Positions 1-19,901 of a stretch of DNA of 23,679 bases are shown piece after piece. Both the position numbers and the translations under genes were made by a program. Each line of letters starts with the position of its first letter. The stretch's first letter is position 1. Source of the DNA: a virus. Where the stretch lies: the IMG/VR virus record IMGVR_UViG_3300031920_000058, positions 1-23,679 of that record. One strand, given 5' to 3'. The notes under the pieces were generated by a model, which saw only the letters and a list, made by a program, of their open reading frames with translations, did not search any database and was not told where the DNA came from.

Positions 1-702
1 GTAGCAGCCATTGGATGCGCCACTTGTGCCTGCCCTCTTTTTGTCGATCCTTTGCGTGGTGTCAGGGTAAGTCAGAGGCGCGTCGAACTCATTATCATGC
101 ACTGAGATCCGCAAAATGATCGCGGGGGCCGTTGTCGTAATCGCTGGCGCTATCGGTGCGTTATCTGTCCCAGTTGCCAACGATGTTATACTAACGAGAG
201 TTGTATCGACATCTGAATAGGCGAGAATGCAGCCAAGCCAATCATCTCCCATGTCGGTTGTGAAGGTGTAGGTTGCCGGTTCACTTCCACCCGCCGTTCT
301 CGTAAAAATCCAAACAGATGGAGTTGAGGAAGTTGCCGGAAGGTCAGTGTTGCCTGAGTTTTGCAACGTCCACCCAGACGGTGTTGTTAGGTTGGCCGCG
401 TTGCCTGTGCCGTCGCCTGCGTCCATGAGAACGGCGAGAAGTAGGTCACCAGACACAACATCGGCCGGCACTGTCACGGCCAGGGTTAGGCTTGTGGTAG
501 CCTCATCATCCTCAATCGATCTGAACTCACCGAAAAATTCAGGCACCTTGAGTCTGTCACCTACGAGCCGATTCATTTCGACCGAACTACCGCCCGCCGA
601 CGGCGTCTCAGGCGCAAAGATCCCGGCTGCATTGTCCCACGTAACAACCTGGCCATCGGTAGCGCCTGATTGATCCAACTGGCTTAACTTTGGTTTTGTC
701 AT
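1..702 (-). CDS. Tail fibre/receptor-binding-type protein, C-terminus cut by window edge
   Basis: The minus-strand frame from ATG at 702 is open without a stop to base 1, giving 234 residues of a longer protein. The start codon overlaps the TGA of the upstream 452-residue fibre gene in an ATGA arrangement, which supports both the start and translational coupling. The N-terminus (KLSQLDQSGATDGQVVTWD) resembles short N-terminal segments seen in phage tail appendage proteins. From about residue 55 a beta-sandwich-like segment follows, with motifs of the type SGDLLLAVLMD, TTPSGWTLQN, VWIFTRTAGGSEP and YTFTTD. Similar segments are common in phage and bacterial surface proteins. The likely role is virion attachment to the host surface, inferred from context. 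No enzymatic motif is visible. Full length and C-terminal function cannot be judged. Confidence 0.85.
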   Translation of the reverse strand, partial: MTKPKLSQLDQSGATDGQVVTWDNAAGIFAPETPSAGGSSVEMNRLVGDRLKVPEFFGEFRSIEDDEATTSLTLAVTVPADVVSGDLLLAVLMDAGDGTGNAANLTTPSGWTLQNSGNTDLPATSSTPSVWIFTRTAGGSEPATYTFTTDMGDDWLGCILAYSDVDTTLVSITSLATGTDNAPIAPAITTTAPAIILRISVHDNEFDAPLTYPDTTQRIDKKRAGTSGASNGCY

Positions 703-2057
703 GATTGATACACCGCAACGAGATCGTCGCCCGTTGTCATATCAACGGCCGTGCCAGTCGAAGCGAGCCAGGTTATCGTAGAACCGCTAATCGTGTAATC
801 CTCCCCCGCGCCCTGAATTTGCTGAACACCGTTGAAGAACAGAACAACGGCAGAATTGCTAATCGGTGTTTGTGCCAACGTATCGGCCAAGGCAGTATCA
901 GACCCAGTGACCGCCTCAGTCGTAACACGCTCTTGTTGTGGCGTGTTGACTGTCGCGCCCGTCGAGACGCCATTCAGTTTCGTCTTATCGGCCCCCGTCA
1001 TAAACCCATCGGCCCCAGCGGCAATCACGTCGGCGTGTTGAGTCCCACCACCTCGAACCCCATGTTGCGCATCGGTTGCGAGAATACCGACTTGCACGTC
1101 GTCGGCCCCAACAACGATCGAGCCATCGGCGTTGGCTGTAACGTCAAGGGCATTCCCATTTAGTAGAAGCCCATCACCGGCTGAGCGAGGCGAACCCGAA
1201 CCGACTTGCGAAACACTCAACCCGTCAGTGCCGATTACATCAGAACCCTCGTCGTCGATAACTAGCCAGGTCGAATCGCCGTTGGCCGTGCCCTCTTCCA
1301 CGGCAAAGAACGATCCGGCGGCTCCATCACCGGCAACGAAGTCGGCAGAGCGAGCCCATGCGCCGCCTGTATCGACAACATAAATACCGTCTTCGGTCAC
1401 GGTGGTTTGGAGGAAGCAGCCGACGCGATCTCCCGTGGCGAGCACAATATCATCAACAGTAGCAGCGCCTGTCAGTGAGCGGTTGCCCGTTTCCAATGCA
1501 CGAACAGAGTCTTTAGGTGTGCGGTAACGCGGGTCGATCAACGCGTCGAGTTTGAGTTTGTCGGCCGCTGACATAAAACCGTCGACCGATGTTGTTGCGT
1601 CGGCGTGAAGAGCACCACCCGACCTTGTGCCGTGTTGAGTGTCATCGACGGCAGTCGTGCCTGCTAACGTTGTGCCGCTACGTTCGACAAGTTGCCCATC
1701 CGATATTGCGCCCAGCGTAAGCTCTTGAGCCCCTGATTCTGAAATAGTGTGGTCGTGATCTGCCCTCGCAAACGACGTGCTTGAACCTTCGGTGTTCGCC
1801 GCACCAATTCCGTTGGACGGAGCGGCCGCAACAATCGCGTGAGTGTGGTCGGACCTCGAAACACCCCCAGAAGAACCAACGGCGGCTGCATCATCAGGCT
1901 GGATTGTGGAAGGAGTGCCTGTGTTGGAGATAGCGTGTTGATGGTCTCGACGTGATACACCTTCCCCCGTTCCTTCGGAAGCACTATCCCCCGAGTTGAT
2001 TGTAGAAATAGTTCCCGTTGTGGTGTCAAGCTGACTTGCTCTGATTGATGTTGGCAT
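699..2057 (-). CDS. Tail fibre protein with HxH motifs
   Basis: This 452-residue protein has several modules typical of phage tail fibres. Three SRxDHxH-type motifs occur near residues 39-41 (HQH), 71-73 (HTH) and 101-103 (HDH). In known trimeric fibres such histidine pairs can coordinate metal along the threefold axis. Two copies of a QHGxRxGGxxHAD...DGFMxxADKxKL segment lie at about 141-171 and 331-361. Between them, about 180-275, is a fibre domain with the signature ATGDRVGCFLQTTVTEDGIYVV followed by FFAVEEGTANGDSTW. The C-terminus (400-452) is a small beta-rich domain also present in the neighbouring 111-residue protein. An AGGGG SD lies upstream of ATG at 2057. Its likely role is host recognition; the target is unknown. 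Confidence 0.88.
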   Translation of the reverse strand: MPTSIRASQLDTTTGTISTINSGDSASEGTGEGVSRRDHQHAISNTGTPSTIQPDDAAAVGSSGGVSRSDHTHAIVAAAPSNGIGAANTEGSSTSFARADHDHTISESGAQELTLGAISDGQLVERSGTTLAGTTAVDDTQHGTRSGGALHADATTSVDGFMSAADKLKLDALIDPRYRTPKDSVRALETGNRSLTGAATVDDIVLATGDRVGCFLQTTVTEDGIYVVDTGGAWARSADFVAGDGAAGSFFAVEEGTANGDSTWLVIDDEGSDVIGTDGLSVSQVGSGSPRSAGDGLLLNGNALDVTANADGSIVVGADDVQVGILATDAQHGVRGGGTQHADVIAAGADGFMTGADKTKLNGVSTGATVNTPQQERVTTEAVTGSDTALADTLAQTPISNSAVVLFFNGVQQIQGAGEDYTISGSTITWLASTGTAVDMTTGDDLVAVYQS

Positions 2058-2066
2058 TGCGAACCC

Positions 2067-2402
2067 CTATTGGTAACGAACAACCATGTTATCAGTGGTT
2101 GTCAAAATAAAATTATTGAGCCAAGTGATTGTCGCGCCGCTCCGAATGTAATCTTTTCCGACGCCTTCAACGTAATCAACCCCGTTGATCATCAACTCAA
2201 CCGAATCCGCATCCGAAGGGAGGGCCGATAGAATGAAAGAAATTTGAGCAGCCGTCGGTGTGAACTCCTCTTCGGCCCAAGAAGTATGCCCGCTCGGCGT
2301 TGACATAACCAGCGCGTTAGAGCCGTCACTGGTAGGCACAGTCCCGGCCGCGCCCGCTGTTCGCAAATTTTCGACTGTTGAAAAAACTGGCTTTGCTGTC
2401 AT
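2067..2402 (-). CDS. Small tail-appendage protein sharing the fibre C-terminal domain
   Basis: This 111-residue protein lies between a membrane-anchored C1q-like protein and the large fibre. Its N-terminal half (about 1-48, ending TPSGHTSWAEEE) looks like a short attachment segment. Its C-terminal half, with MINGVDYVEG, DYIRSGATITWL and MVVRY, aligns by eye with the last 53 residues of the 452-residue fibre (FFNGVQQIQG, DYTISGSTITWL, LVAVY). This implies domain duplication or exchange within the fibre cluster. The SD before ATG at 2402 is weak, and the gene starts 12 bases after the preceding stop, so coupling is likely. A virion tip or fibre accessory role is inferred. No signal peptide is visible, unlike the two genes upstream. 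Confidence 0.8.
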   Translation of the reverse strand: MTAKPVFSTVENLRTAGAAGTVPTSDGSNALVMSTPSGHTSWAEEEFTPTAAQISFILSALPSDADSVELMINGVDYVEGVGKDYIRSGATITWLNNFILTTTDNMVVRYQ

Positions 2403-2414
2403 GTTATCAACCGA

Positions 2415-3167
2415 TCATTTTTTTTCAATCGTGCCGCGAAAATATCGCATAACAAAATTCCCGGTCCCACTTGTATTTTTCATTCCAAAGGAAATCACAT
2501 CGCCAACTGCTAGGTCAACATAGGCGGCACCGCTCGAAGACATGTAATCCCCAATCCCTGGAGAAGTATTTCGCCGCTCCGATGGCTTAACCACTGTGCC
2601 GTTTTTGAAAATCGATTGATCTATAACATCATTATTTGAGGCAGGAGAGAATGAGGATTCGAATTCAACCTCGTGCATTCCCGCCATTGCGGCAATTGCG
2701 GAGCCGGAACGATTGATCGTCCCCGTTGCATCATCGGCAACCCAAGTATCAGTTATCTGGAACGTATTGGTTGCCGCGTTTTGTACCTCAAAAATACCGT
2801 TGGCGTTTGTCGTGCCTGTAATCGAGACCCATTGATCGTCAAGAAGCCCGTGCCCTGCCGACGTGACAGTTGTAAGCCCCCCGCCAGCATCGGCCAACAC
2901 TGTTATGGCACTGGTGAGACCGGGCAACATTGTATCGTTGGACGTGCATTCACCGGCATCCCATTTGCCCTCCATTGAAACAAAATGCCACGCCCCCGTT
3001 GTGTCAATAACAGAGGCGTCCGTGTTTTCGAAAACGTAGGTTTCGCAGAGAATAGGGCCGAACCTTTCGGCGCTAGGGAACAGCGCCCCGTCGTATCGAA
3101 ACCCGATTAGCGAAACAATGCAAACCAACAAAACAAATGAGACCAGAGCAATTTTCCTGAATAACAT
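2415..3167 (-). CDS. Membrane-anchored or exported protein with C1q-like C-terminus
   Basis: The start is set at ATG 3167 because the SD GGGAGAGG sits 2-3 bases upstream, immediately after the stop of the previous gene. This gives 250 residues, and an upstream in-frame start adds only a few unconvincing residues. Residues 1-22 are Met-Leu-Phe-Arg-Lys followed by a long hydrophobic run (IALVSFVLLVCIVSLIGF), a signal anchor or signal peptide. No clear lipobox is present. The middle (about 85-150: GLTTVTSAGHGLLDDQWVS...NTFQITDTW) matches a widespread phage beta-rich repeat resembling the E1 FCCH-type fold. The C-terminal 100 residues (SIFKNGTVV, YVDLAVGDVISFGM) look like a C1q/TNF-type jelly roll, often trimeric. 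An N-terminal export signal on a protein in a tail cluster is unexpected for a virion component. Confidence 0.82.
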   Translation of the reverse strand: MLFRKIALVSFVLLVCIVSLIGFRYDGALFPSAERFGPILCETYVFENTDASVIDTTGAWHFVSMEGKWDAGECTSNDTMLPGLTSAITVLADAGGGLTTVTSAGHGLLDDQWVSITGTTNANGIFEVQNAATNTFQITDTWVADDATGTINRSGSAIAAMAGMHEVEFESSFSPASNNDVIDQSIFKNGTVVKPSERRNTSPGIGDYMSSSGAAYVDLAVGDVISFGMKNTSGTGNFVMRYFRGTIEKK

Positions 3168-3177
3168 TGCCTCTCCC

Positions 3178-3660
3178 TTAGTTCGACAACCAAGCGTCAA
3201 TTGATAAAATGTCGCCAGCGCCAGGCGTGTTATCGTGAGCGGTCACGCACTTGATAACTGGCCAAGCCGAGATCCCAATCTCTTGCGTGTATTCGGTGCT
3301 CGCCGATAGTGAAATCGTTTTCATAACTCCCGCCCCCGTAATGTTCAGAGTACACACACCAGCCGCGACGGTGCAGGTTGTCATTGTTGCCGTCGCAGTC
3401 CCTCGCAGTCGACCGACTGTACATGTTGTCGAAATAACGCCGCTCGTAATACGCGTGAAGTTTACGATCATATGCAGCTTAGTGTACCCACCCAACCTGT
3501 TATCGGAAGAACGATCGACGTAAAATGTCAAGGTCGCGGGCTCCCCGTTCATAGGCTTTTCGTTGACAACGGTCCCGAGGTCCCAGCGCTTGAACGTGAT
3601 TTGCTCCGCTTGGGCTGGGAGTGCGAAGAAAAGGCAAAGAATTACGAGGATTGTTTTCAT
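3178..3660 (-). CDS. Secreted protein with Sec signal peptide, function unknown
   Basis: ATG at 3660 is preceded by AGGAG at 5-base spacing. The longer upstream reading overlaps the previous gene and hides this site. The resulting 160-residue protein begins with Lys, a hydrophobic core (ILVILCLFFAL) and PAQA before Glu19, a textbook signal peptidase I site. The mature part (about 142 residues) is predicted by eye to be beta-rich. It has four cysteines in the segments TTCTVG, TTCTVA, GVCTLN and IKCVTA, consistent with disulfides in an oxidising compartment. No catalytic motif was recognised. It sits between two C1q-like proteins in the receptor-binding cluster. It could be a periplasmic or surface-displayed phage product, or a virion protein whose export signal has another meaning. 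Confidence 0.82.
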   Translation of the reverse strand: MKTILVILCLFFALPAQAEQITFKRWDLGTVVNEKPMNGEPATLTFYVDRSSDNRLGGYTKLHMIVNFTRITSGVISTTCTVGRLRGTATATMTTCTVAAGVCTLNITGAGVMKTISLSASTEYTQEIGISAWPVIKCVTAHDNTPGAGDILSIDAWLSN

Positions 3661-3670
3661 GGTGCTCCTA

Positions 3671-4540
3671 TCAGGACTTTGATCCGAAAAAGTAAGTATG
3701 CGCAACTGATGCAATAATGGTGGCCGTTCCTGTCCCGCCAACATAATTGTGTGTTGTCCGAAAATCGATCACGTCTCCGCGCAACAGATAGACGTCGGGG
3801 GCTGTCACCGGGACAGAGGTGGCCGTGCTCGACCCCATTGTGTTTGCGGCACCGAACCAAATAACTCCATTTTTATAAAGTGCCGCCTGTAACTGCGTCC
3901 CATCCGGTGTCCCGGTTGCATACCAAACAGAACCGGAGAACGAATAGAGACCGTTCGACGGCGCGGTAAATGAATAGTTTCCGGCACTGTTATCATAGAC
4001 CGATCCGTAATCGTGAACCTCTGTTGCGTTTGCGACAATGGCCCACACGCCTCCTGTGATTGTTTGGTTGCTCGCGAGATAGGCGTGAAACGCAATTGGC
4101 TGACTGACAATCGATGCGCTCGAAAAGTAAGCCGTGAATGCAACGTTGTTTTTTCGAATAAGTTTTTTGGCAAAACCCGCATTGGCGGGGGCGGTTACGA
4201 TGCCGGACAATTCATACCAAGTATCAACGGATGGAAGAGCGGCGGTGTATATAGAAACGGCAGAAATATATACGCCCGCACTTGTGTACCAGTGAACATA
4301 GAAACTTACCCACGACGTTCCAGCGATTGAATCAGCCCGTATAATAGCCCGCGCAAGATATGGGCTTCCGGGTTCTACTGGCTGCACGTCGCTTAGCAAT
4401 GTAGGATCGCTTGCGGGAGTTGTGTTCTTGAATTCTACTGAAAATTCGCCGTCGTAAACGACCGAATCATTTTGAGCGAAGTCGTCGGCCCAAGTGCTTG
4501 ATCCACTAATCTCATACCCATCAGGAGGATAAGTTGTCAT
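3671..4540 (-). CDS. Tail appendage protein: beta-sandwich plus C1q-like domain
   Basis: This 289-residue protein begins at ATG 4540, with AAGGGG 8 bases upstream. The N-terminal half (about 1-145) has the look of a carbohydrate-binding beta-sandwich: YEISGSSTWADDF, YDGEFSVEFKN, YLARAIIRADS, WYELSGIVTAPANAGFA. The C-terminal half (about 150-289) carries a C1q/TNF-like pattern: IAFHAYLASNQTI, YDNSAGNYSFTAPSNGLYSFSG, LYKNGVIW, VYLLRGDVIDFRT. The family is usually trimeric and used for receptor or glycan binding. The likely role is host surface recognition at the tail tip. It follows the hub-like gene by 3 bases. Unlike its two downstream neighbours it has no signal peptide. Confidence 0.85.
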   Translation of the reverse strand: MTTYPPDGYEISGSSTWADDFAQNDSVVYDGEFSVEFKNTTPASDPTLLSDVQPVEPGSPYLARAIIRADSIAGTSWVSFYVHWYTSAGVYISAVSIYTAALPSVDTWYELSGIVTAPANAGFAKKLIRKNNVAFTAYFSSASIVSQPIAFHAYLASNQTITGGVWAIVANATEVHDYGSVYDNSAGNYSFTAPSNGLYSFSGSVWYATGTPDGTQLQAALYKNGVIWFGAANTMGSSTATSVPVTAPDVYLLRGDVIDFRTTHNYVGGTGTATIIASVAHTYFFGSKS

Positions 4541-4543
4541 AGT

Positions 4544-7078
4544 TTAGCCCCTTGTCCACATTGAGAAATCATCGTTCCGAATTGCGAGTTTTGCGCTCGA
4601 AACTGTTTGGTGCGTGCCTATCGATGCTTTTGCAATCTTGAGAGACGTGACTGCGTTCGCGCCAATCTTCGCGGCAGTTACGGCAAGCGTGCCAAGCTTG
4701 GCTTCTGTAACTGAGAGTGAGCCGAGTTTCGCCTCAACGACGGACCCCGTATCAAGCTTGGCAGTAGTCACCGCGAGCGATCCGAGTTTCGCCTCAACCA
4801 CTGCACCCGTGCCAAGCTTCGCCTCAGTCACGGCAAGAGCAGCAAGTTTGTCTTCTGTTACCGCAAGCGCCCCAAGTTTCGCTTCAACAACAGAACCCGT
4901 TGCAAGTTTCGTCTCAGTCACAACCCCCGTATCAAGCGACGCCTCTTGTGCCAGATGCGCCGCATCCACACCGACCAACCGTCGATACGTCGACCCGTCT
5001 TGAATGTCATCCAATGATCGAGACTCGATAAGATCTAGCGAGTCGAACGGGTGTAAGGTTCGCACGCCGTCAAGTGCCGTTATGTCAACGGCGCTGGTTG
5101 TCACCCAACCAAGTTGTACTTCATCGTTTGGATAATCCGGCTCGCCCGCCCCAACTGCCACCGAGTCAAAAATCATGCTCGCGGTATCGACGTTGATCCT
5201 GATGTAAGTATCCATTGTCGCTGGAAGGTTACGCGATGTCACCTCTGCGATCGATTGCCTGAAAGTCCCGTTCGATAGAGACCCAGCCGAGATCTCAATA
5301 TCGCGCCCGCCTTCATCAGATATAACTAAACCGAACTCAACGAAAACCTGAGTGACTGACTGATAAAGGGTTTGCGCCAATGCCATCGCCCCTCGTGTCC
5401 CTCTGCCGAATTGTGCGTGAGCTACTCGTGTCACTGCCTCATCGCCAGCGTGAGCTAGCACCCATGCAATCGACGGCTCGCCTTCAAACGTTCGCGGTTC
5501 CTTCCCAACTATTTCAAACTTCTCATCACTCAATCCGTCGAGCCCATAAGCAAGGAATTGCTTTTTGGTGAGAGCTATCATGTCCCCGGTTTGATATTTG
5601 TATTTCGTCATCAAGGTTTGAAATTCGACAATCGGAGCTCCATACTTGAACCTTGCAAGCAACTCGTCGAACAGAATCACCAGCGGTGTGATGTCATAGA
5701 CCCAAGTCTGAGAATTTTCGTGAGCGCTTGCCGTTGTCCCAAGTTGCGCCCTGTTAATGGTGTTCAGTGAAATATTCCCGACCCAACCCTCTTCGTGGTG
5801 CCAAGTTCCATCGGCGGGGTCGAGTACTTGCACCGCACCAATCGCGCCAGTGTTTCGTGTGATGCTCGTAACGCTTACGATCTCCACATTTCCGTTGCCC
5901 GAAATGTGCGACGAGTCAAGCAGCAACCACAACGGCTGAGTCGCGCTAATTGCTGCGAACCCGTCCGAGCGGTTGCCTGACATCGCGTGTAACTCTGCCC
6001 GGAACAAAGTCGCGGAAGTTGCAACGGCATCAATTGCACCCGAGAAGTAGAAGTGAGAATCCAACCAATTCGTGACAAGACTTTTGGCGAGCACCCTGAT
6101 TGACGCGCCGGGATAGGCATACGCTGTCTGAGAATCCGAATCGTCGACCTGATAGGTGTGCTTGTGGTTCCCGTCCGGGTCACGGCCAAACGTTGCAATC
6201 AATCTGTTTACGATGTTCGAGTCGAGTGCTTTTTGTTCGAACGTTCCAGGTAGAATGTCGTCGTCGTCCCAAGAGTCGACGGTAGCAGCGCTCGCGTCAA
6301 AACGTTTGAATGCGATCGAGCCGTCCTCGTCAATCACAAGTTGGCCGTTTAGAAGCTGCACAATTTCGTTGGCGAGCCGCAGAGCCGAGATAGGTTTGTT
6401 GATGCCGCCCCAGTCGGCTGTTCTTCCAGTCTCGTCCCCGACATATTGCGCCCATGCCCCATTCAGTTTTGAATCGAGGCGCGACAATATGAGGTGACCA
6501 ATGTCGTCGGTGTAGTTGGAAGGATCGAATGATGCCGTGTTAAACGAGGTCAGCCCGCCCTTTTCAAGCACTCCCGAGCCGTCGCCGAGGTAGAGAATTT
6601 CGAGCGGGTTTTTATTCAGCCAGTACCCGGTGATCTTGTTCGAGTCGAGAATGGCCATCGGGTCAAGTGACGATATTGCCACCGAACCATCATCACGCGG
6701 CAGTACTTCGGAAATCGGTCCGGTGAAGAACTCCACATAATCAGCTTCGTCGAGTGAGGCTTCGCCGATCTTGACGGTCAGCTTTTGCCCTGCGATCCTG
6801 TTGTTAACAATAATTGGCCTAATCCAAGCATCATGCAGCGAAACGAATACTTCCCCGATCCTTGTGACGCGTGTGAATGGATCTAGCTCAGTGCCGACGG
6901 GTTCGACAGATACGACGCCTTCCGGGTGATCTGAATCGCGCAAGTCGCTTGTGGCCGCAACAGAGCGCGTGATTGCCGCCCAATGTGTTGTGCCGTCGTA
7001 AATATCCACAAGATAAGTGACCTTGGCACCGCTTCGCAAAAACGCGGCGTCAAACGCTGCTGTTGTCGAGAGTGTCAT
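4544..7078 (-). CDS. Large tail-tip/hub-like protein with decapeptide repeats
   Basis: This 844-residue protein starts with an ATGA overlap on the preceding tail-tip gene. Residues 1-160 (FLRSGAKVTYLVDIYDGTTH, YVEFFTGPISEVLPRDDGSV) look like a hub-type domain found in siphovirus tail-tip proteins. The central region (about 200-560) includes ALRLANEIVQLLNGQLVIDEDGSIAF, typical of central tail or baseplate hub proteins that sit below the tail tube. Residues 720-819 consist of ten decapeptide repeats with consensus VTEAKLGTLA. The last 25 residues (ending FSMWTRG) may be an interface for the fibre genes that follow. Its order after the tape measure and a Dit-position gene fits a hub or tail-associated protein. 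No peptidase or lysozyme motif was recognised. Confidence 0.8.
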   Translation of the reverse strand: MTLSTTAAFDAAFLRSGAKVTYLVDIYDGTTHWAAITRSVAATSDLRDSDHPEGVVSVEPVGTELDPFTRVTRIGEVFVSLHDAWIRPIIVNNRIAGQKLTVKIGEASLDEADYVEFFTGPISEVLPRDDGSVAISSLDPMAILDSNKITGYWLNKNPLEILYLGDGSGVLEKGGLTSFNTASFDPSNYTDDIGHLILSRLDSKLNGAWAQYVGDETGRTADWGGINKPISALRLANEIVQLLNGQLVIDEDGSIAFKRFDASAATVDSWDDDDILPGTFEQKALDSNIVNRLIATFGRDPDGNHKHTYQVDDSDSQTAYAYPGASIRVLAKSLVTNWLDSHFYFSGAIDAVATSATLFRAELHAMSGNRSDGFAAISATQPLWLLLDSSHISGNGNVEIVSVTSITRNTGAIGAVQVLDPADGTWHHEEGWVGNISLNTINRAQLGTTASAHENSQTWVYDITPLVILFDELLARFKYGAPIVEFQTLMTKYKYQTGDMIALTKKQFLAYGLDGLSDEKFEIVGKEPRTFEGEPSIAWVLAHAGDEAVTRVAHAQFGRGTRGAMALAQTLYQSVTQVFVEFGLVISDEGGRDIEISAGSLSNGTFRQSIAEVTSRNLPATMDTYIRINVDTASMIFDSVAVGAGEPDYPNDEVQLGWVTTSAVDITALDGVRTLHPFDSLDLIESRSLDDIQDGSTYRRLVGVDAAHLAQEASLDTGVVTETKLATGSVVEAKLGALAVTEDKLAALAVTEAKLGTGAVVEAKLGSLAVTTAKLDTGSVVEAKLGSLSVTEAKLGTLAVTAAKIGANAVTSLKIAKASIGTHQTVSSAKLAIRNDDFSMWTRG
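4622..4921 (-). repeat. Ten tandem 30-bp units encoding decapeptide repeats
   Basis: Residues 720-819 of the hub-like protein are ten units of exactly ten residues of the form V[TV]-x-A-K-[LI]-G-x-x-[AS]. Examples are VVEAKLGALA, VTEDKLAALA, VTEAKLGTGA, VVEAKLGSLA and VTAAKIGANA. At DNA level the units share a GAGGCGAAGCTTGG-like core but have diverged at synonymous positions. They are therefore old and probably maintained for structure. A trimeric stalk or fibrous connector is a reasonable inference. Repeat-number variation between relatives would be expected. Confidence 0.9.
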
Positions 7079-8025: not shown

Positions 8026-10152
8026 TTAGAACCCCCTCGCTCGTGAACGAGTTAACATCTTGGCGAGTTGCCGGGCAGACCTCGACGCCTCTGCTCCGGT
8101 GATCGGCTGAACTGACTCGTACTTGACATGCACGATCTGATTGCCCTGCATCCCCAAGCCACCAACATTCTCGGCGTTGTCTGCGATGCGCTGGATTGCC
8201 GACGTCTGCCCGTCTCGAAGGACACCCTCGCCGTGTTGAACAAGAGTGCCGACAGAATCGACGCCTGGAATTCCACCCATGACAACCCCGCCCATCGCAG
8301 CGGAAGGGAGTTGGCTAACGTAAGCCTTAACCATACCGAAAGCTGTTGCCGCCGCCGCTGTTCCGATCGCAATACCGACAAAGGGCATGAACGTATGAGC
8401 CGCAAGTGCCGCCCCTGCGGCCTGTGCGGCGTAGGCGAGCAGTGACTGTTCTACAAATGAGACAATACTTGCACCCAAATTTTTGACGACGTTTGCCATA
8501 ATCGCGTCGAGACTTTCCCCCGCGATAATCATTCGAGCGATTGATTGCCCGAAGGCATCGCCCATCGCACCGGCGGCCATAACGCCCGCTTCACCTAGAG
8601 CCCGAGCCTTCTCGGCAAATTGCGCTTGGGTTATTATTCCTTCTTTTTGTTTCTTTTCGAGTGCCGAATATCCTGCACCGACTGTAGCAATCATTCCCAT
8701 AAACGAATCGCCGCGGGAGGTGTTTGCCGCCTTCTCGTTGTCGATTTCTATCTCTCTTTCAGAACGCTGCTTCTCTTCTAATGAGGCTACTCGCTCAAGA
8801 TTCGCCATTACTATCGACATTTTCTTTTGCTCAAGATCCATTTCTCTTTTTGCTATCTCCTCTATTCGTTGGAGCCTTTTCGTTTCTCGTTCTAACCTAT
8901 CCCGGTATGTTTCCTTTTCCAGCTTCTCGACTTTCTTAATTGCGGCGGGTACATCCTTGCCGAGTGTTTTCGCCGTCGCCTTCACCTTGTCGTGATATTT
9001 ATCAATCGCGGCAGTTGCCTTGTCGGTCGTGTTCGCAACGTCAACCATGCTTTGTGCACCTTCGGCGATGCTCGTCTTGAGTGTTTCTGCTAGATTTTCC
9101 GTGGTCTCGTTGATTACGTCAAAAGCTTTTGCCAGTGGGTTCACATCCCAATGGCCAAGCTTGACAAGAATTTCGGCGGCATCTTTTAACGGCGATAGAA
9201 TAAACTGAATGGACCTAGTTAGCAGATCAAACCCGGTGACAAGACCAAGAAGCACCACTTCTGCGACAATCTTAATTCCCTTGAAAATATTGATTATAAA
9301 TCCCAACACATGGACAACAGCCTTCGCCGCTGTTGTCAGGCTGTCGAAAATCGATTCCATCGAACTGAACTCTGAATTGCTCTCTGCAACAAGCCCGGTC
9401 AATTGATTTACAAGAACGACGAGTTCGAGAATGCTGGCGCGGAACAACTTGCTTTCAGTGGTCGACTTCCCAATCTCTTCTCGGAAGTCTCCCCAGGCGT
9501 TGCTCAATTGTTTCATCGCGCCAGAGTAGGACTCTGCCTGTGCCTTTGCTGCTCCCCCAAACTTCTTGTTGATGGCATCGAGCGCGGCGGCAAACTGTTT
9601 CGCCTTCGGTAAAGACGTGTTGACCACGATACCGTATCGACTCAACATCGATGCGCCACGCTCTGATGAAATAGCCAACAGCTTCATTGCACCGTTTAGA
9701 TCTCCACCCGTCGCAGCCGCCATGTTTGCCGCCGCCAAGGTTGTTTTCTTGAGCTGCTCTCCGACGATACCGAACCGCACTGCCATTGCCGCCGCTGCGA
9801 TTGTTCCCTCGTCGCCGAGTATTGTGACTGCCTGAAGCTCGCCGGCGAATTTAACAAAGTCCTCGGTCACCGCCTTAACGTCGCCTCCCAGAGTTTGCTT
9901 GTACGCCGCCGATAGACTGAGCACCGCGTCTTGCTGGATGGATGCGAGCCGCGTGCTCTCTTTGAGCCACTTGGTTATCCCGCGTGCGACCATTATGCCG
10001 ACGAAAGCGACAAGCCCCGCCGCTAGGTTCTTCGCCGTGTTACCGACCCCTTCGAGTTTCTTCCCGAATTTCTCGGCATTCTCACTTGCTGATTTGAAAC
10101 CGGTTGCCGTCTTATCGTCGGACGTAATCTCTATTCCTACATTTTCAGGCAC
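8026..10152 (-). CDS. Tail tape-measure protein
   Basis: The 708-residue product starts at GTG 10152 with AGGAG about 6 bases upstream. It is the longest helical protein in the tail module and lies after the G/T chaperone pair, the standard tape-measure position. Features visible are an N-terminal helical segment with a hydrophobic stretch at about 43-58 (LAAGLVAFVGIMVARG) and alanine-rich helices to about 230. A membrane-like stretch follows near 280-310 (VVHVLGFIINIF, VVLLGLVTGF), then a charged coiled coil at about 405-480 rich in Glu/Lys/Arg. A hydrophobic Ala/Gly-rich region lies near 555-615. The protein sets tail length. At roughly 0.15 nm per residue, a general rule for these proteins, the tail would be about 105 nm. 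The hydrophobic segments may insert into the host membrane during DNA ejection. Confidence 0.93.
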   Translation of the reverse strand: MPENVGIEITSDDKTATGFKSASENAEKFGKKLEGVGNTAKNLAAGLVAFVGIMVARGITKWLKESTRLASIQQDAVLSLSAAYKQTLGGDVKAVTEDFVKFAGELQAVTILGDEGTIAAAAMAVRFGIVGEQLKKTTLAAANMAAATGGDLNGAMKLLAISSERGASMLSRYGIVVNTSLPKAKQFAAALDAINKKFGGAAKAQAESYSGAMKQLSNAWGDFREEIGKSTTESKLFRASILELVVLVNQLTGLVAESNSEFSSMESIFDSLTTAAKAVVHVLGFIINIFKGIKIVAEVVLLGLVTGFDLLTRSIQFILSPLKDAAEILVKLGHWDVNPLAKAFDVINETTENLAETLKTSIAEGAQSMVDVANTTDKATAAIDKYHDKVKATAKTLGKDVPAAIKKVEKLEKETYRDRLERETKRLQRIEEIAKREMDLEQKKMSIVMANLERVASLEEKQRSEREIEIDNEKAANTSRGDSFMGMIATVGAGYSALEKKQKEGIITQAQFAEKARALGEAGVMAAGAMGDAFGQSIARMIIAGESLDAIMANVVKNLGASIVSFVEQSLLAYAAQAAGAALAAHTFMPFVGIAIGTAAAATAFGMVKAYVSQLPSAAMGGVVMGGIPGVDSVGTLVQHGEGVLRDGQTSAIQRIADNAENVGGLGMQGNQIVHVKYESVQPITGAEASRSARQLAKMLTRSRARGF

Positions 10153-18159: not shown

Positions 18160-18300
18160 TCAATGTGTTTTTGACGATGGGTTATTTTCCGTCTTGCATC
18201 GACTGCAAACAATCATCCACGGCCTTGTCAGGTAAATTGCGAAAAGCTTGTTACACTTAGAACATCGCGGCTTTTCGTCTAACTCGTGAGTCCCATGCAC
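18160..18300 (-). CDS. Com-like zinc-ribbon regulatory protein
   Basis: The protein has RCSKCNKLF, then about 15 residues, then VCSRCKTEN. This C-x2-C...C-x2-C arrangement, with an N-K-L-F after the first pair, resembles the Mu Com zinc finger that binds mom mRNA and turns on its translation. The start is uncertain. GTG at 18300 gives 46 residues, with the cysteines near the N-terminus as in Mu Com, and overlaps the portal by 22 bases. An ATG at 18408 (82 residues) has a strong SD (AGGAGG, 7-8 bases) but lies deep inside the portal HTH region. No Mom-like gene is in the window. A regulator of late-gene translation or an RNA/DNA-binding role is inferred. Confidence 0.72.
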   Translation of the reverse strand: MHGTHELDEKPRCSKCNKLFAIYLTRPWMIVCSRCKTENNPSSKTH

Positions 18301-19901
18301 GTTTCTAAGTCGCGGCGCAGTATTTTGTAATTCATCCCAACCTTGACTCCTGGAAGCTTCCCATTTCGGATCGCTCTCATGATTGTGCTCTTTGGAACTT
18401 TCAACCATCTTGCCGCCTCCTCTGCGTCCATAACGGACGGAAAACCATCATCGTCTAACAGTGAATCGTCGATCGGATCTTCTATCGGTGGTTCAGGTAC
18501 GGGCGGCACTACCGTTTCAGGTGTCTCTACCGTTGGCCCGAGTGGCCCATCTCCGAACACATCGTCGCCTCCGGAGGGAAGTAGATCGTCATCATCGCCG
18601 CGTTGTTCGAGACCGAGCTTCTCTCGGATCTTAGATTCGTCGGATGCCGTTGGGACAATGAGCCCACCAGTTGCGGCCGCCGCGAACCCAGTGATCCACT
18701 CCGTGATGTTTTCCTTCTCGACGTCGCCATGAGATAACGTCGGCCATAAATGTCGAGGTATCTTGTTTAGGATACACCACCTTGCAATCGTCGATATGTT
18801 CAGTGTCTCGGTCATGATATCCATCATGCCACCGAGAGCAACCGATGCCAGTTGAGTCTTGTCCGAAGAAAGAGATCTTGATCCGTTTTCCATTGCACCG
18901 AGCAAAGCGAATTCCCACAGCAAGGAAATCAATTCATCAACTCTGTCGCGAGTGATCGACTTGTCGATATCAATCGCTCTGGACCCACCGCTTGACATCA
19001 ATCGAAATTTGTAGCCCGTGGGTTCGCCGTCGGGGCCAATCTCGCAAGGGATAACCAAGCCCTCCAATTGATCGCGCTTTACCTTGCGGACGATGTTGAA
19101 CATCAGATTGCGGATCGCTACTTCATCAGCTGTTGCGCCCGGTCCTAGAATTGCAACCGGGACCTCCATCACCGGGTAGCCTGCTAGATCTCTCGCGATA
19201 CCGGTTCCTTCAATCTCCTCTTTCATGGTCTTGAGATAGTACGGCCGATAAGCGTTTCTTAAACCGCTCCGACCTTCGGGACTGCCGCCGGCGGGTTCGA
19301 AACGTAGATGCGCCATTCTGGAAAGCGGGAGATAGGTGCGCTTGTAGTTTGGAGGAGATCGCTGGTAGCACCCGAGCAAAGTCTTGCCGTCCTCGGAATA
19401 CTTCCACCCCTCAATCGTGTCTTGCTTTCGTATTTCGAGAGATCGCCAACCATAGAGCCCGTCGTTGTACTGGCTGTTGAATAACGCGCTTGGATTGTCA
19501 CCACGTCGGATCTTGTTCTTCTCCCACAACAAACAGAATCCGTATTGCCCCACTGTGAACATATCATCGACGGTCTGACGCCACGGCGTTTCCATGTCAT
19601 ACATGCACTCGTCGAGCTTATCGCCCCAGTAGTGCGCTTCGCTGCTTTCGTTCGCGGGCATGACCGGCCAAGGTGCTTGGCGAATCAACATTCGCATCCC
19701 GCGCAATGCCCCACCGAGCAACGGGTCGTTGTCTCCCATCTCCCGGTACACCCTTGCGGCTTTTGTTCCTTTTAGATCTGTATGAAACTCTTCCGAAACA
19801 ATCCCGCCGAACCTCTTAAACCCTGTGTATCCAACGTCAAGAAGCGCCGGGATGTCATCGTTGGTTTGTTTTGCTTTCGATAACCTGTGTTTCTTGCTCA
19901 T
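18279..19901 (-). CDS. Portal protein with C-terminal helix-turn-helix domain
   Basis: This 540-residue protein overlaps the MuF gene by 4 bases (ATGA). Residues about 55-420 have portal character: DPLLGGALRGMRMLIRQAPWPV, MFTVGQYGFCLLWEK, YLPLSRMAHLRFEPAGGSPEGRSGLRNAYRPYYLK (quoted in part: PAGGSPEGRSGLRNAY), LLWEFALLGAMENGSRSLSS. It may belong to the Mu gp29/DUF935-like group, but this is not certain. After an acidic/proline linker (about 430-490) the last 45 residues, beginning DAEEAARWLKVPKSTIMRAI and continuing NGKLPGVKVGMNYKILRRD, form an excisionase-like HTH. Portals form the dodecameric DNA channel. The HTH could contact DNA from the clip or crown, or act separately after cleavage. The fusion is in one frame without an obvious internal start. 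Confidence 0.88.
   Translation of the reverse strand: MSKKHRLSKAKQTNDDIPALLDVGYTGFKRFGGIVSEEFHTDLKGTKAARVYREMGDNDPLLGGALRGMRMLIRQAPWPVMPANESSEAHYWGDKLDECMYDMETPWRQTVDDMFTVGQYGFCLLWEKNKIRRGDNPSALFNSQYNDGLYGWRSLEIRKQDTIEGWKYSEDGKTLLGCYQRSPPNYKRTYLPLSRMAHLRFEPAGGSPEGRSGLRNAYRPYYLKTMKEEIEGTGIARDLAGYPVMEVPVAILGPGATADEVAIRNLMFNIVRKVKRDQLEGLVIPCEIGPDGEPTGYKFRLMSSGGSRAIDIDKSITRDRVDELISLLWEFALLGAMENGSRSLSSDKTQLASVALGGMMDIMTETLNISTIARWCILNKIPRHLWPTLSHGDVEKENITEWITGFAAAATGGLIVPTASDESKIREKLGLEQRGDDDDLLPSGGDDVFGDGPLGPTVETPETVVPPVPEPPIEDPIDDSLLDDDGFPSVMDAEEAARWLKVPKSTIMRAIRNGKLPGVKVGMNYKILRRDLETCMGLTS

Follow-up and report, generated by a model that had tools for sequence, protein, structure and literature searches.

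Predicted Sec export signals on two proteins of a phage tail-fibre gene cluster and on fibre-type proteins of other phages

The fibres of tailed phages are assumed to be assembled in the cytoplasm, and the locus described here raises the question of what two proteins with predicted Sec export signals do within a tail-fibre gene cluster. The window, by which we mean the whole stretch of DNA that was analysed, corresponds to an entire IMG/VR record (23,679 bases), and its minus strand carries a phage morphogenesis operon made up of terminase, portal with a Mu-F-like head protein, scaffold, major head protein, tape measure, hub, and fibre genes. The two genes of interest, P0001 (3178–3660, minus strand, 160 aa) and P0002 (2415–3167, minus strand, 250 aa), are placed in the distal tail module by the tape measure gene at 8026–10152 (minus strand), and both are flanked by fibre-type genes whose products have no signal peptide. 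On the upstream side this neighbour is P0003 (3671–4540, minus strand), which has weak matches to CBM_4_9 and to C1q (E=0.034 for the latter) and no Cys, and which is preceded by the likely tail hub of 844 aa (4544–7078, minus strand), with tail-fibre repeats at its C-terminus and a PHROG tail fibre match (E=1.7e-14). On the other side are a fibre-cluster protein of 111 aa with no Cys (2067–2402, minus strand), a fibre protein of 452 aa with one Cys and with PHROG matches to tail fibre and head decoration families (699–2057, minus strand), both lacking a signal peptide, and a further fibre-type protein that is interrupted by the contig end (1–702, minus strand; PHROG match of unknown function, E=1.1e-11). 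Three features of the operon are recorded in passing: the hub repeats, at residues 708–830, are of the VTEAKLG[ST]LAV type common to cyanophage and Lactobacillus phage tail fibres; residues 180–329 of the 452-aa fibre protein match the head-decoration family phrog_2647 (E=9e-19); and the portal protein (18279–19901, minus strand) has a C-terminal helix-turn-helix or excisionase-like domain at residues 482–533 (PHROG 10045 and 66), an unusual fusion.

The stop codon of P0003 lies 10 nt before P0001, the gap between P0001 and P0002 is also 10 nt, and no promoter or terminator separating the two genes from the structural operon was found beyond chance. Signals for a dedicated promoter and terminator were no higher than chance, and the possibility that the two are separate morons was rejected.

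The original prediction had assigned strong Shine-Dalgarno sequences to both genes, a clean signal peptide to P0001, and a signal anchor to P0002, and each of these assignments is borne out. The sequences TAGGAGCACC-ATG and AAGGGAGAGGCA-ATG precede the chosen starts of P0001 and P0002, respectively, whereas no Shine-Dalgarno sequence stands before the longer alternatives at 3744 and 3200. From this start codon P0001 has the positive n-region, hydrophobic h-region and AxA site of a Sec and signal peptidase I substrate, as judged from a heuristic rule, the Shine-Dalgarno sequence, and shuffles; its N-terminus, MKTILVILCLFFALPAQA followed by EQ, is predicted to be a cleavable signal peptide of residues 1–18 that ends at an AQA/E site and leaves a mature part of 142 aa. 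P0002 begins with a hydrophobic stretch at residues ~6–23 behind positive residues, with no good AxA cleavage site, as in a signal anchor; in its AlphaFold2 model a helix of high confidence (pLDDT ~90) spans the first ~20 residues, and the rest of the chain is modelled poorly. The AlphaFold2 model of P0001 alone is unusable (pLDDT 37). The signal-peptide rule, a home-made heuristic, is passed in the window by P0001 and P0002 only, and among composition-preserving shuffles just 0.02% (P0001) and 0.04% (P0002) reach the hydrophobicity and pass the rule. Neither protein contains a lipobox.

The cysteines point in the same direction. The four Cys that had been counted in mature P0001 are present, at residues 80, 96, 103, and 138, and P0002 has Cys at residues 16 (in the membrane segment), 41, and 74, two of which lie outside the anchor, so that the mature counts are even in both proteins. 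Taken together, the mature parts contain 6 Cys in 370 residues versus 2 in 2,697 for the other tail genes (odds ratio 22, p=6.7e-5), with p=0.018 against all other minus-strand genes, both p-values being only indicative because residues within one protein are not independent. The mature parts therefore differ from their neighbours in Cys, which argues against export being merely apparent, and this concentration fits real export into an oxidising compartment. With signal sequences and Cys concentrated in exactly these two proteins, the predicted Sec export of both is backed, and we consider it very probable from the sequence that P0001 and P0002 are exported; in a diderm host P0002, held by its signal anchor, would face the periplasm. 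A different explanation is that the hydrophobic N-termini serve in the virion, in assembly or membrane contact, and not in export, with both proteins folding in the cytoplasm. The position of the genes inside the structural operon is compatible with this, as is the fact that export is a prediction from sequence; the canonical n-, h-, and c-regions, the AQA site, and the Cys concentration all argue against it, and we regard it as improbable.

As to what the exported parts may be, P0002 has an FCCH-like stretch at residues ~87–153 (PHROG 9998, E=1.5e-4), for which the Pfam family E1_FCCH (PF16190) gives 16.1 and 18.1 bits, below its curated cut-off of 29.5 bits. This stretch is 58% identical over 66 aa to part of a 776-aa protein without a signal peptide in the structural cluster of another phage, which from our own reading of its sequence we take to be a P22 gp10-like tail protein. 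The C1q-like domain proposed earlier for P0002 holds at the level of fold, since a low-confidence model of the protein repeatedly matches C1q/TNF domains in the PDB (E about 1e-3, probability 1.0), but not at the level of family assignment, where the Pfam C1q family (PF00386) has no match to P0002 at its curated cut-off. A C1q/TNF-like tip at the C-terminus is thus probable on the model, and P0002 looks like a membrane-tethered protein built of fibre parts. A role for either protein in lysis, as spanin or SAR endolysin, was rejected, the mature parts being low in charge and fibre-like and matching no lysis family.

No relatives of P0001 were found in IMG/VR and INPHARED, nor any homologues of P0002 in these two collections apart from its FCCH domain; a match to P0001 in one genome (G019) was dropped as weak (13.6 bits) and containing an internal stop. 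The phage is an orphan in the databases searched, since neither hub nor capsid relatives were found in IMG/VR, nor capsid relatives in genomes; distant capsid and TerL relatives do exist, but in those TerL relatives that were examined the tail module is unrelated. With the FCCH domain the only part of either protein to have a homologue in IMG/VR or INPHARED, what is learned from other phages applies to P0001 and P0002 by analogy.

A scan of fetched related phages and prophages found signal peptide-bearing fibre-type proteins in several unrelated structural clusters. These include an IMG/VR phage with three such proteins (L102/L103), a podovirus-like pair with the head gene on one side and the adaptor on the other (L108, L149), a protein of 1,935 aa (L115), a run of three genes behind a tail hub (L127), a 614-aa protein directly after the tail-fibre gene of Bdellovibrio phage phi1422, which also has one of 170 aa, and two consecutive genes after a tail protein in Bradyrhizobium phage ppBdUSDA122-1, the second being annotated as tail fibre. 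In this phage the predicted mature forms begin VQNELVPP in a 482-aa protein and EQSSYVTP or AEQSSYVTP in the 865-aa tail fibre. In a Methylobacterium oxalidis prophage the signal peptide-bearing protein ends in the Pfam Gp53-like_C tail-fibre domain (51.8 bits versus a cut-off of 24.9). The presence of a signal peptide on a protein with this curated domain makes unsafe the premise of the original prediction, that virion fibres fold in the cytoplasm and that exported ones are displayed on the cell. A separate observation concerns the middle of three consecutive exported fibre-cluster genes in another locus (L184:4873–5988, plus strand), whose product begins MISRRQLLRSSLASATLIAMPAIARA, looks like a Tat rather than a Sec substrate, and has 11 Cys. 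Among 12 cultured phages from spread-out genera, no signal peptide-bearing fibre-type proteins were present in the regions sampled, and the plausible genes that passed the rule were only lysis, lipoprotein, or immunity genes. Such proteins are a recurrent minority trait, with a frequency in our survey that is biased by the loci having been found partly by tracking signal peptide-bearing hits. In a full-text literature search of incomplete coverage, no paper was found that describes Sec signals on the fibres of tailed phages.

The Cys signature extends to this wider group. In a rule-selected set of fibre-like proteins that probably includes false positives (a capsid-like protein in L010 and two short transmembrane hits in L154/L156), Cys content is 1.02% in those with a signal peptide (n=22) versus 0.56% in those without (p=0.0013), and even Cys counts occur in 16 of 20 versus 60 of 145, respectively (p=0.0011); a smaller, earlier rule-based set gave weaker results, with p=0.036 for content and a borderline p=0.05 for parity. 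The 221-aa C-terminal domain of one signal peptide-bearing fibre, that of L127, occurs on fibres without a signal peptide in many contigs and on signal peptide-bearing fibres in three different N-terminal settings.

The most informative comparison is provided by an N-terminal fibre domain, here called xQ, which an HMM search found to be common to 16 proteins with a signal peptide and 64 without. In 30 of the 64 the protein begins with the domain itself, as M-[SA]-Q, and in all 16 of the signal peptide-bearing members xQ is directly behind the signal peptide, at a mostly AxA-like junction such as ALA/AQ, ARA/DQ, APA/SQ, or AFA/VQ. The clearest pair is APA/SQYDFGTI in L240 and M-SQYDFGTI in L243, where the APA/S site was read by eye and the rule placed the cut earlier, after residue 14. 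These two genes (L240:2983–4203 and L243:2953–3804) have homologous N-domains, each directly behind a hub gene, with the signal peptide present in one and absent in the other, and so make a natural test pair. Since the signal peptide ends where the relatives without one begin, cleavage would leave a mature product with the N-terminus of an ordinary fibre, and from its place in the latter fibres the xQ domain would be the part that docks the fibre to the tail. Two Cys are present in the ~85-residue domain of 15 of the 16 members with a signal peptide versus 1 of the 64 without, the others of which have no Cys (52) or one (11). On a tree of the domain the signal-peptide status needs five changes, of which well-supported branches force at least two; because most signal peptide-bearing members form one group, the Cys pair represents a few evolutionary events and not sixteen. 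Within this class the signal peptide sequence varies while the junction and the Cys pair are kept, which speaks further against the hydrophobic N-termini having a virion role in place of export.

The signal peptide-bearing xQ family (L127, L184, L211-L221, L240) shares with P0001 and P0002 an export signal on fibre-type proteins, as well as consecutive genes after the tail hub and even Cys numbers. It differs in that the xQ domain belongs to the family only and there is no sequence match, and P0001–P0003 (searched via L001, a stretch of the window) are not listed by the HMM search among its signal peptide-bearing members. In the family, the signal peptide precedes the exact N-terminus of fibres that otherwise lack one, and being exported and being virion-bound are therefore not alternatives.

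We tentatively favour, at somewhat less than even confidence, the reading that P0001 and P0002 are late-made proteins of the fibre class, adhesin-type, that are routed through Sec, mature outside the cytoplasm, and act at lysis. P0001 would be cut by signal peptidase and fold with disulphides in the periplasm, P0002 would be tethered by its anchor, its FCCH/C1q part lying on the periplasmic side of the inner membrane, and the resulting extracytoplasmic pool of adhesive subunits would meet virions, or the receptor of the virion, at lysis. Such a pool acting at lysis is the most likely arrangement because both proteins are made from the structural operon, and maturation outside the cytoplasm is favoured because the mature chain of the xQ family keeps the normal fibre N-terminus. 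The export signals, the location in the fibre cluster, the Cys signature, and the recurrence of the architecture elsewhere are well supported at the sequence level; we infer the disulphide folding, location, release, and function at lysis. Counting against the favoured reading, the xQ-family sequences are not independent and the structure models of P0001 and P0002 are poor, and P0002, with an anchor that looks uncleaved, could not reach virions unless cut.

Exported proteins are known from other phage loci of this kind. Lambda Lom is encoded within the tail-fibre gene cluster and is an outer-membrane β-barrel of the Ail/OmpX type; it resembles P0001 and P0002 in being exported and in its location, and differs from them in not being a fibre-type adhesin. 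A second example is T5, in which llp adjoins the pb5 gene on the downstream side and its product, which has an intramolecular disulphide, blocks T5 from the periplasm (PMC9586334). On the pattern of Llp and Cor, P0001 and P0002 could act in superinfection exclusion or receptor masking: from within the infected cell's envelope they would block the receptor that the phage itself uses, or the entry of its DNA. Sec-exported phage proteins encoded beside receptor-binding genes are an established arrangement, as with llp and pb5 (PMC9586334), the anchor of P0002 would hold that protein in the envelope, and two of the cultured phages that we sampled have annotated superinfection-immunity genes inside the tail gene cluster. 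The latter genes, in pIS4-A (L138:15064–15363, minus strand) and Bas81 (L141:16342–16536, minus strand), lie on the opposite strand between the major tail and tape measure genes. However, Llp and Cor are small lipoproteins with a lipidated Cys and without fibre-type domains, whereas P0001 and P0002 lack a lipobox, the former being cut at a standard AxA site by prediction and the latter being anchored; they have fibre-type domains rather than the form of a small plug, no separate promoter was found that would make them early, and the normal fibre N-terminus kept in the signal peptide-bearing families of other phages is needless for a pure blocker. By analogy with T5, superinfection exclusion is a real possibility, nearly as likely as the favoured reading, above all for the anchored P0002.

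The mosaic adhesive trimer (MAT) fibres of Bdellovibrio combine a signal peptide with phage-tail-fibre-like parts and adhesive tips that include TNF/C1q-type folds with disulphides (PMC10769870), and they suggest a third role for P0001 and P0002, as surface adhesins or modifiers that alter what the infected cell or its debris sticks to. MAT proteins, with their signal peptide, phage-fibre-like shaft, and TNF/C1q-type tips, show that proteins of this make-up can work on a cell surface (PMC10769870), and signal peptide-bearing fibre-type genes are present in a Bdellovibrio phage. P0001 has the signal peptide and P0002 an anchor instead, and both are phage-encoded, whereas MAT fibres are encoded by the bacterium, are typically ~1000 aa, carry an invariant N-terminal domain of ~130 aa as well as a trimeric shaft, and have been shown to be located at the surface. 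With mature lengths of 142 and 228 residues, P0001 and P0002 are short and leave no room for a long trimeric β-prism shaft, none being visible in what are poor models, and a surface adhesin would also need a route across the outer membrane, so that this role seems rather unlikely. The decoy, superinfection-exclusion, and surface-modifier roles proposed originally are thus possible for both proteins, with extracytoplasmic maturation and action at lysis the reading that we prefer.

The recurrence of this architecture suggests that, in some phages, adhesive fibre proteins are exported from the host cytoplasm ahead of lysis. It is conceivable, if doubtful, that in one group of tailed phages true tail fibres travel via host Sec, form their disulphides in the periplasm, and dock onto tails only at lysis. 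Each would be an ordinary fibre with a signal peptide added in front and, once mature, with the N-terminus of a virion fibre, and P0001 and P0002 would be further independent cases of extracytoplasmic fibre-class proteins. A recurrent fibre-type class with Sec signals, exact junctions, and paired Cys would add an extracytoplasmic route of maturation or display to tail-fibre biology, would link phage fibres to bacterial surface fibres such as MAT, and would open part of the question of superinfection exclusion to experiment in phages that can be cultured.
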